Below are positions 11,785 to 14,563 of a stretch of DNA of 64,000 nucleotides, piece after piece. A model generated the notes under the pieces. The model did not search any database and had not been told where the DNA came from. It saw only the letters and a list, made by a program, of their open reading frames with translations. Made by a program: the position numbers and the translations under genes. The stretch's first letter is position 1. Each line of letters opens with the position of its first letter. This stretch comes from Trueperaceae bacterium (GTDB taxonomy: Bacteria > Deinococcota > Deinococci > Deinococcales > Trueperaceae). The stretch lies in NCBI GenBank assembly GCA_002707365.1, contig PAMQ01000004.1:119921-183920 (forward strand), in the 5' to 3' direction.

Positions 11785-12564
11785 TCAAAGCTTGCTACCT
11801 TCCAGGACTTGGTCTATGGCTGTTCCGGTGAGATATCCGAGGAAAGAGGGTACAAGAGGGAGAACACATGGGGAAAGGAAAGAAAGTATTCCGGCAAAGA
11901 AAGAAAGGCCAAGTGTTGGGGTTTTTGCACCACCTAAAATTAACCCTTCGACACTACCTAGGCTTGCTAGGTAAGGACCAAAGAGTTTTATAGATCCCGT
12001 CAGCAAGACAAAGCCGACTAAAATTAGAAGTACTCCACCAGCCTTTTCAAGGAGGTTTGTGTAGCGTCGAAGCCTCTGCCAAGCTGGTATAGCCTGACCA
12101 AAGATAAGGAACGGAATGGTTAAACCAAGCGCATAGAAACCGAGCAATAAGCTTCCCTTAACAGCGTTGCCTGTAGCAGCTGCGATGCCTAGTATTCCAG
12201 CTAGCATAGGTCCGATGCAGGGTGTCCAGCCAGCTGCGAAAGCAACACCTACTATTACAGACCTGAGATATCCTGCGGATTTATTTTGTATATGGAACCG
12301 CACGTCTCGTTGAAGGAAAAGTATGGGGATAAGGCCGAGTTTAATTAGCCCCATAGCCATTAGGAAAATCCCAGCTGCGATTCTAACAATATTGCCAAAT
12401 TCGAATAAGAAATTGCTGACTAAACCGGCACTAAATCCTAACGCAACGAATATTGCTGATAAACCGAGCATAAATGCCACAGTGTGCAAAGCCAGGTGCA
12501 AACGTACCGGAACACTGTTGGGATTATTCGAGGATAATTGGCAACTAATTTTCAAGGACTCCAC
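11785..12564 (-). CDS. CcdA-family thiol:disulfide electron transporter with circularly permuted order
   Basis: CcdA carries reducing equivalents from cytosolic thioredoxin across the membrane to partners such as TlpA/ResA. A standard CcdA begins with TM1 (FLSPC) and has GWTPC in TM4. Here the 259-residue product begins in the TM1-TM2 loop (LALHTVAFMLGLSAIFVALG is TM2), continues through GWTPC (Cys116) and TM5-TM6. It then adds LSFFAGILSFLSPCVLPLV (Cys233), which is TM1, at residues 219-240, and ends DQVLEGSKL, normally the loop after TM1. Both redox cysteines are therefore kept but in swapped order. With six segments, both normal termini lie on one side, so moving TM1 to the end keeps the topology possible. 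The GTG start overlaps the tlpA stop by 13 nt. No second copy or normal N-terminus exists nearby. Confidence 0.85.
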   Translation of the reverse strand: MESLKISCQLSSNNPNSVPVRLHLALHTVAFMLGLSAIFVALGFSAGLVSNFLFEFGNIVRIAAGIFLMAMGLIKLGLIPILFLQRDVRFHIQNKSAGYLRSVIVGVAFAAGWTPCIGPMLAGILGIAAATGNAVKGSLLLGFYALGLTIPFLIFGQAIPAWQRLRRYTNLLEKAGGVLLILVGFVLLTGSIKLFGPYLASLGSVEGLILGGAKTPTLGLSFFAGILSFLSPCVLPLVPSFLGYLTGTAIDQVLEGSKL

Positions 12565-13097
12565 TCGACTCCGAGGCCGGATAGGTGATCCATCATCTCA
12601 TCGGCGGTGATTGGGCCCACCTTAACGCTAGATATTATTCCATCGTCCCCTATGAAGAAAGTTGTGGGCATAGCCCTGACTCTGTAGTTTCCAGCCAGGA
12701 GGTTTTGAGAACTGTCAAATTTAACGTTGGGGTAATTATTGAGCTGGGCCTTAGTAGGACTAAACAAGGTTAGTAGATTAGTAGTTACCTGCTCATCAAG
12801 GAATTTCAAGGCGCGGTCAGCATTTTCTCCCAGGTTGATTAGTAGAAATGTTACTTGGATTTTGTCTATATTTATTTCGTTATGAACTTGTTGAAATAAA
12901 GGGATCTCATCAATACAGAAAGAGCACCAGGTGGCCCAGGCATTGAGGACTATAGCTTGGTCTTTGAAATCATCCATGCGGACCACCTGACCATTTTTGT
13001 TGACCAGAGTGAATTCGTGAGCTAGTTGCCCTGGATTTTGCGCTAATGCAGCACTTGCTAAGACTCCTAATGTTGTGAGGAGAAGTCTACTTAGCAT
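12552..13097 (-). CDS. TlpA/ResA-like secreted thioredoxin
   Basis: Extracytoplasmic thiol-disulfide reductase that receives electrons from CcdA and reduces apocytochrome c or other oxidised proteins. The 181-residue protein has a signal peptide (hydrophobic 3-19, ending ALAQ), then an AhpC/TSA-type thioredoxin fold with NAWATWCSFC (Cys58 and Cys61) and the cis-proline loop VRAMPTTFF. It overlaps the following ccdA-like gene, which argues for a functional pair. The ATG has only a weak AGGA upstream. Confidence 0.92.
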   Translation of the reverse strand: MLSRLLLTTLGVLASAALAQNPGQLAHEFTLVNKNGQVVRMDDFKDQAIVLNAWATWCSFCIDEIPLFQQVHNEINIDKIQVTFLLINLGENADRALKFLDEQVTTNLLTLFSPTKAQLNNYPNVKFDSSQNLLAGNYRVRAMPTTFFIGDDGIISSVKVGPITADEMMDHLSGLGVEWSP

Positions 13098-13259: not shown

Positions 13260-14447
13260 TTAATTCTGTAGGCCCTCTTTCGAATAAGCTAATTCGTGAA
13301 GTTGGGCAGCTCGATCTGTTGCTTCCCATGGAAAGGCTTCCCTGCCAAAATGCCCGTAGCTACTAGTTGGCGTGTAGATAGGTTGTTTTAAGTTAAGTTG
13401 TTTAATGATTGCTGCAGGTCTTGGATCGAAAACTTTCAAAACCATTTGAATGAGACTTTCTTCATCGAAATCAGAAGTTCCGAAAGTATCTAAGTACATA
13501 CCAACTGGTTGAGCGACGCCAATCGCGTAAGCTAATTGGACCTGACAGCGTTTTGCAAGGCCAGCCGCAACCACATTTTTTGCTATGTAACGGGCGTAAT
13601 AGCTAGCGCTACGATCGACCTTCGTTGGGTCTTTACCGCTGAAGGCACCGCCACCGTGAGGAATAGCACCACCGTATGTATCGACTATGATTTTCCTGCC
13701 CGTTAAGCCAGCGTCAGCTTGGGGGCCGCCAATAACGAATCGGCCCGTGGGGTTTATGTATATACGTGTGTTGTGGGTAATTAATGCTGTGGGAATAACT
13801 TCACGGATTACTAACTCTTCGAGGTCACGGCGTAGGGTTTCTTGGTCAATATCGGGTGAGTGTTGAGCTGAAACTACTAAAGCAGTTGCCTCAATGGCTC
13901 TATCACCGTCGTAAGCGATGGTGACCTGTGATTTGCCATCTGGGCGTAGGTACTCGAGAAGGCTATTTTTTCGAACCTCAGCCAGGCGAGCAGCCAGTTT
14001 GTGGGCTAGGCTAATAGGAAGGGGCATAAGTTCTGGAGTCTCAGAAACGGCATAACCAAACATCAGGCCCTGGTCTCCAGCTCCAGTTTGATCAAAGGGA
14101 TCACCAGAATGCGAGTCTAGAGCCTCATTAACTCCCATCGCGATGTCTGGAGACTGATCATGTACAGCAATGAGAACAGCGCAGTGGTCTGCGTCTATAC
14201 CGAAGGCGCTATCGGTGTAACCGACTTCCCGTACAGTCCTGCGAACTATTTCTTGGAAGTCCACGTAACCTTGGCAGGTGATTTCACCTGTTATAAGGGC
14301 TACTCCTGTAGATAAGATGGTTTCTATAGCTACTCTGGCATCCGGGTCCGTAGCTAGAATAGCGTCGAGCACACCGTCGCTGATACGGTCAGCGAGTTTA
14401 TCCGGGTGCCCTTCAGTGACAGACTCTGCAGTGACCAGCCTTTGCAA
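13260..14447 (-). CDS. metK: S-adenosylmethionine synthetase
   Basis: Makes S-adenosylmethionine from methionine and ATP; cytosolic. 395 residues, normal for the family. Seen: [19 protein letters not shown] at the N-terminus (methionine and Mg binding), [26 protein letters not shown], and the signature [17 protein letters not shown] with the conserved P-loop-like region. The TTG start at 14445-14447 is chosen because a GGGGG Shine-Dalgarno lies 8 nt upstream and the protein then begins MQRLVTAES like its relatives; the longer frame to 14504 has no ribosome site. No SAM riboswitch was recognised in the short upstream gap. Confidence 0.94.
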
Positions 14448-14563
14448 TCGAATTACCCCCTTAAGATTTTGAGATGAACCGTGTCTCATTAAACAGGATA
14501 CCAATCCAGCTCGTAGGGCGTGACGGACAGTGAGGACAGTGGAGCTATACTAAAGCTTAATTA

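Follow-up and report, generated by a model that had tools for sequence, protein, structure and literature searches.

The window, a stretch of 64,000 nucleotides from the genome of a Trueperaceae bacterium, contains a ccdA gene in which the first transmembrane segment (TM1) lies at the C-terminal end of the product instead of opening it. This locus raises the question of whether such a gene is genuine and encodes a working CcdA, and of whether the rearrangement occurred once or several times.

Motif order, topology and predicted structure

Within the 259-aa frame, which starts with a GTG codon, the GWTPC motif (C116) comes first and FLSPCVLP (C233) lies near the C-terminus, the same succession of motifs that had been read in the initial annotation. 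The frame measures 270 aa from stop to stop, which leaves 11 codons ahead of the start and hence no room for a missed N-terminal TM1, and no separate small TM1 gene was found beside the permuted ccdA. The Pfam DsbD_TM model matched the window protein in two stretches, for a score of 50.8 bits where the cutoff is 27.1; the best-scoring stretch aligned residues 25–188 with model positions 46–215. Similarly, a profile built from 19 relatives matched Thermus CcdA (PDB 5VKV) in two blocks of swapped order, query residues 208–241 falling on chain positions 4–37 (38 bits) and query residues 19–192 on positions 41–210 (92 bits). Altogether, the motif order, the lack of N-terminal space and the swapped 5VKV blocks bear out the helix order 2-3-4-5-6-1 that had been proposed, and on the evidence of its sequence the window protein is a circularly permuted CcdA/DsbD_TM electron transporter (Table 1). 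Indeed, it shares with the CcdA family (PF02683) homology at the Pfam level and a cysteine with its motif in both TM1 and TM4, and departs from this family in the N-to-C order of TM1 to TM6. In addition, C116, C233 and their flanking prolines are invariant in an alignment of 19 homologues, and the segment PYLASLGSxEG is conserved in the linker of the Deinococcota permuted CcdAs.

Table 1. Features of the permuted ccdA locus (positions in the window)
Feature	Position	Strand	Remarks
Permuted ccdA, 259 aa, helix order TM2-3-4-5-6-1	11785..12564	-	
TM2 to TM6, residues 20-189	11998..12507	-	alignment, AF2 secondary structure, 5VKV block 41-210
GWTPC with catalytic Cys116 in TM4	codon 12217-12219	-	
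TM6-to-TM1 linker, residues 190-217, predicted periplasmic	11914..11997	-	
Relocated TM1, residues 218-246, FLSPCVLP	11827..11913	-	
Catalytic Cys233, in FLSPCVLP of relocated TM1	codon 11866-11868	-	
tlpA/resA-like gene, thioredoxin-fold product with WCSFC	12552..13097	-	directly upstream of permuted ccdA

In 21 Deinococcota sequences, the mean number of K+R per loop on one side was 1.7 (N-terminus), 4.5 (TM3-4), 2.2 (TM5-6) and 0.9 (C-terminus), and it was 0.05 (TM2-3), 0.09 (TM4-5) and 0.7 (TM6-1 linker) in the opposite loops. This positive-inside pattern was repeated in the other three main groups of permuted CcdA, and the topological plausibility advanced for the window protein holds up; combined with helix prediction, the pattern gives the window protein six predicted membrane helices of alternating topology. 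Canonical CcdA is N-out/C-out. The charge distribution of the permuted form fits an N-in/C-in arrangement, and because its new N- and C-termini are both cytoplasmic by charge, no helix needs to depart from its canonical orientation. TM1 follows TM6, the old termini being joined through a short linker, the old TM1-TM2 loop provides the new N-terminus, and the new C-terminus lies just past TM1; in the proposed fold, TM1 itself would pack at its usual site beside TM4.

AF2 models were obtained for the window protein (pLDDT 80.1, pTM 0.72) and for a woesearchaeotal permuted protein (pLDDT 82.0, pTM 0.73). The TM1 helix is interrupted at SPC in these models, and 5VKV was the only confident PDB match for both of them (Foldseek, probability 1.0). 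Note that these Foldseek alignments are sequential only, covering 176 columns for the window protein and 170 for the woesearchaeotal one, with loose TM-scores (0.41 and 0.43, respectively) and rmsd values of 6.3–6.5. We consider it highly probable that the window protein is a functional CcdA that arose by natural circular permutation, a rearrangement with recurrent origins that always lie at the TM1-TM2 loop.

Genomic neighbourhood and proposed function

The start of the permuted ccdA overlaps the upstream tlpA-like gene by 13 nt. In 19 of the 22 permuted Deinococcota loci, the gene immediately preceding ccdA, at a nearly constant spacing, encodes a thioredoxin-fold protein with WCxxC, compared with 2 of the 13 canonical ccdA loci of this phylum. 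The direct coupling to tlpA, from which the initial annotation had argued that the gene is likely functional, is borne out. The upstream TlpA-like protein matched PF00578 (AhpC-TSA/Redoxin) with 57.1 bits and scored under the NCBIfam cut-offs for ResA (65.3 vs 170) and TlpA (53.8 vs 230). Upstream of the tlpA-ccdA pair, metK occupies positions 13260–14504 of the window, as it likewise does in genome G002 (L287), and in G014 (L009) metK adjoins the permuted ccdA, the neighbourhood being conserved.

The window genome also carries a canonical ccdA paralogue (G000:C14), which is grouped with ccmA-B-C-E, i.e., followed by genes for an ABC ATPase, CcmB, a CcmC-type assembly protein and CcmE. This arrangement suggests a division of labour, in which the permuted copy would serve the TlpA-like protein and the canonical one cytochrome c maturation. 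Judging from the cysteines and the neighbouring gene, C116 and C233 would form the redox pair, and electrons would pass from cytoplasmic thioredoxin to the permuted CcdA and then to the periplasmic TlpA-like protein encoded by the coupled gene; the ccm cytochrome c maturation operon would be served by the canonical paralogue.

In other lineages, the permuted gene neighbours a Thioredoxin_8/Thioredoxin_10 protein (Woesearchaeota) or a DsbA-like protein (Chloroflexota), and many genomes of the phylum of bacterium FW021_bin.48 (hereafter the FW021_bin.48 phylum) have no CcdA match at E<=1e-25 other than the permuted form. Judged by its sequence, the window protein behaves as a CcdA. Several local arrangements may be mentioned here. 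At L281:3321-4595 (FW021_bin.48 phylum), the permuted ccdA adjoins the signal peptidase II gene (lspA), with an apparent lgt on the other side. Three woesearchaeotal operons (L271:1741-2430, L272:1496-2179 and L277:3570-4298) contain a second, divergent canonical CcdA-like gene near the permuted one, the TM1 of this second gene carrying APLGAVCVLPLYPGFL; these two-CcdA redox cassettes of small-genome archaea also hold WCxxC lipoproteins, and related operons hold Thioredoxin_8/Thioredoxin_10 proteins.

Distribution, origins and alternative readings

A first wider scan, in which genome contigs were searched and a script ordered the two motifs, recovered two Chloroflexota loci, one Woesearchaeota archaeon and bacterium FW021_bin.48 with the permuted order; a third Chloroflexota locus (L037) also displays it. 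Related genomes share the order of the window gene, since collinear full-length matches (43–67% identity) were present in 21 of 111 Deinococcota genomes, representing 12 of 31 genera. The two permuted copies of one single-contig Deinococcota genome (G016:C1:1927042-1927773 and G016:C1:3263338-3264069) had identical match scores. Permuted ccdA was further found in 27 of 279 genomes of the phylum of the Woesearchaeota genome, in 17 of 149 genomes of the FW021_bin.48 phylum (verified cases, plus 3 further full-span matches), in Nitrospirota (4/236), Bacillota (1/300) and Acidobacteriota (1/237), and in none of 299 Pseudomonadota genomes at E<=1e-29; because thresholds were unequal between phylum surveys, these counts are lower bounds. 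The Chloroflexota sample contributed 23 distinct permuted sequences to the combined set, and all groups together yielded 94, which dismisses chance as the source of this order. Among plasmids, 344 records gave a match and none spanned 80% of the query, which is what canonical order would produce; viral contigs held three CcdA loci, of which the two readable ones were canonical.

In the four main groups, each of the 88 permuted sequences ends 21–52 residues past SPC and has a TM4-to-TM1 distance of 117–138 residues, and this uniformity indicates that the cut always fell in the TM1-TM2 loop. Some permuted CcdAs (L093, L037, L203 and L307-L310) are lengthened between TM3 and TM4 by up to about 90 inserted residues. 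The linkers are informative about how the permutation arose. Indeed, the canonical ccdA genes of the FW021_bin.48 phylum end with FTNSFLRIAGWFYQFVPTPKL, and the permuted genes of this phylum show FTNSFLRFTAWLYQTFPAA and a Gly-rich stretch ahead of the canonical N-leader and TM1. In Woesearchaeota, linkers likewise consist of the canonical C-tail followed by the canonical N-leader. In both phyla, this composition is the signature of a head-to-tail duplication followed by trimming, and supports the origin through duplication and truncation that had been suggested for the window gene. The ccdA gene would have been duplicated or fused head-to-tail, and the first TM1, as well as TM2-6 of the second copy, would then have been lost. 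These events would have taken place independently in Deinococcota, Woesearchaeota, Chloroflexota and the FW021_bin.48 phylum, and probably in other groups too. Among about 250 loci, none was an intermediate carrying TM1 at each end.

Since the window genome is a 2.08 Mb draft in 19 contigs, an artefact of assembly or annotation, or else a decayed gene, might be suspected. However, dozens of independent assemblies share the permuted order, several of them in single contigs of 2.3–4.4 Mb, including single-contig chromosomes (among Deinococcota, two single-contig genomes of 2,269,167 bp and of 4,285,982 bp, the latter with two copies), and a misassembly is thereby excluded, while the frame has no space for an N-terminal TM1 that annotation could have missed. 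In addition, dN/dS between close relatives is 0.045–0.13 for the relocated TM1 vs 0.08–0.18 for the remaining protein, and such low values imply that TM1 is maintained by strong purifying selection. With an order conserved across genomes and a low dN/dS, artefact and pseudogene were both rejected, their probability being practically negligible. It is also conceivable, and the clade-specific conserved linker motif as a possible new functional element would go in this direction, that the same parts have another job or packing, e.g., with TM1 swapped between protomers, or with a role other than electron transfer to TlpA. This appears unlikely given the invariance of both cysteines and of their flanking prolines, the TlpA-like neighbour, the predicted preservation of every helix orientation, and the many genomes of the FW021_bin.48 phylum in which the permuted form is the sole match at the threshold given above.

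The question of one or several origins was addressed with trees, for which sequences were rotated to the canonical order before alignment and tree building. The permuted proteins split into several clades (FastTree, 217 sequences). Under a mixture model with 94 representatives, the permuted and canonical genes of the FW021_bin.48 phylum formed one clade (support 98) and those of Woesearchaeota another (support 98), and the fewest state changes amounted to 8, or 10 without the TM1 columns. Forcing all permuted sequences into one clade cost 249 log-likelihood units (AU p=4e-6), and 261 units without the TM1 columns (AU p=9e-48); as searches were quick and alignments short, weight should be placed on the large likelihood difference and not on the AU p-values. 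Note that the deep branches are weak, leaving the exact number of origins uncertain, and that the rejection of a single permuted clade is by itself compatible with one gain and later reversions. A single ancient permutation spread by gene transfer, in which reversion or replacement accounts for the canonical copies close to the permuted ones in each phylum, draws on this weakly resolved backbone and on the fact that transfer does occur. Indeed, permuted genes of Nitrospirota (L307-L310) and Bacillota (L263) lie inside the Chloroflexota permuted clade (support 95, extended tree), which suggests transfer between phyla or, for the single Bacillota case, a wrong bin. However, besides the AU tests, the permuted genes of the FW021_bin.48 phylum and of Woesearchaeota are sister to or nested in the canonical genes of their own phylum (support 98–100) and share their C-tail sequence. 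This nearness holds for TM1 and TM2-6 alike: outside its own group, the nearest sequence was canonical CcdA of the same phylum for TM1 in 16 of 17 (FW021_bin.48 phylum) and 24 of 27 cases (Woesearchaeota), and for TM2-6 in all 17 and all 27. Moreover, a single origin requires repeated restoration of the canonical order and thus more steps, and we regard it as quite improbable.

Overall, at least four origins are likely, in Deinococcota, Woesearchaeota, the FW021_bin.48 phylum and the main Chloroflexota clade; the single Acidobacteriota permuted gene, placed among canonical genes of Acidobacteriota and Pseudomonadota in the extended tree, points to a possible further origin, on one sequence only. 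We assign a probability of about 0.75 to the reading that CcdA has been permuted at least four times independently at the TM1-TM2 loop, in both bacteria and archaea, so that a convergent class of this polytopic membrane electron transporter exists and has in places displaced the canonical form.

Comparison with known systems

No earlier description of a permuted CcdA or DsbD was found among 5.39 million open-access papers, subscription papers and preprints being mostly outside this search, and NCBIfam holds no model for the permuted class. Since profile searches give plain DsbD_TM matches and no curated model flags the permutation, the class stays hidden. To our knowledge, there are few documented cases of natural circular permutation in multi-helix membrane proteins, and fewer still in which it recurs at one loop. 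Here, TM1 has repeatedly been made to insert last, not first, with its periplasmic end tethered and its cytoplasmic end freed. Permuted CcdAs thus provide natural variants for testing the insertion order of membrane proteins, bear on the TM1 mobility needed for electron transfer and, as a natural experiment in protein rebuilding, offer material on how permutations arise in evolution.

Like Thermus thermophilus CcdA (5VKV, PF02683), the permuted protein has six segments, both catalytic cysteines and the SPCVLP and GWTPCIGP motifs, but its TM1 is C-terminal, its N-terminus corresponds to the old TM1-TM2 loop, and its TM6-TM1 linker of about 27 residues is new. The DsbD membrane domain (DsbD-beta, protein-disulfide reductase) resembles it through weak homology over TM2-6 in relatives, whereas the permuted protein lacks fused periplasmic domains and has a permuted order. 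Finally, the locus recalls the TlpA/ResA-CcdA redox pairs, with a tlpA-like gene directly upstream and overlapping, yet differs from them in that the CcdA partner is permuted and the TlpA-like protein falls under the NCBIfam TlpA and ResA cut-offs.
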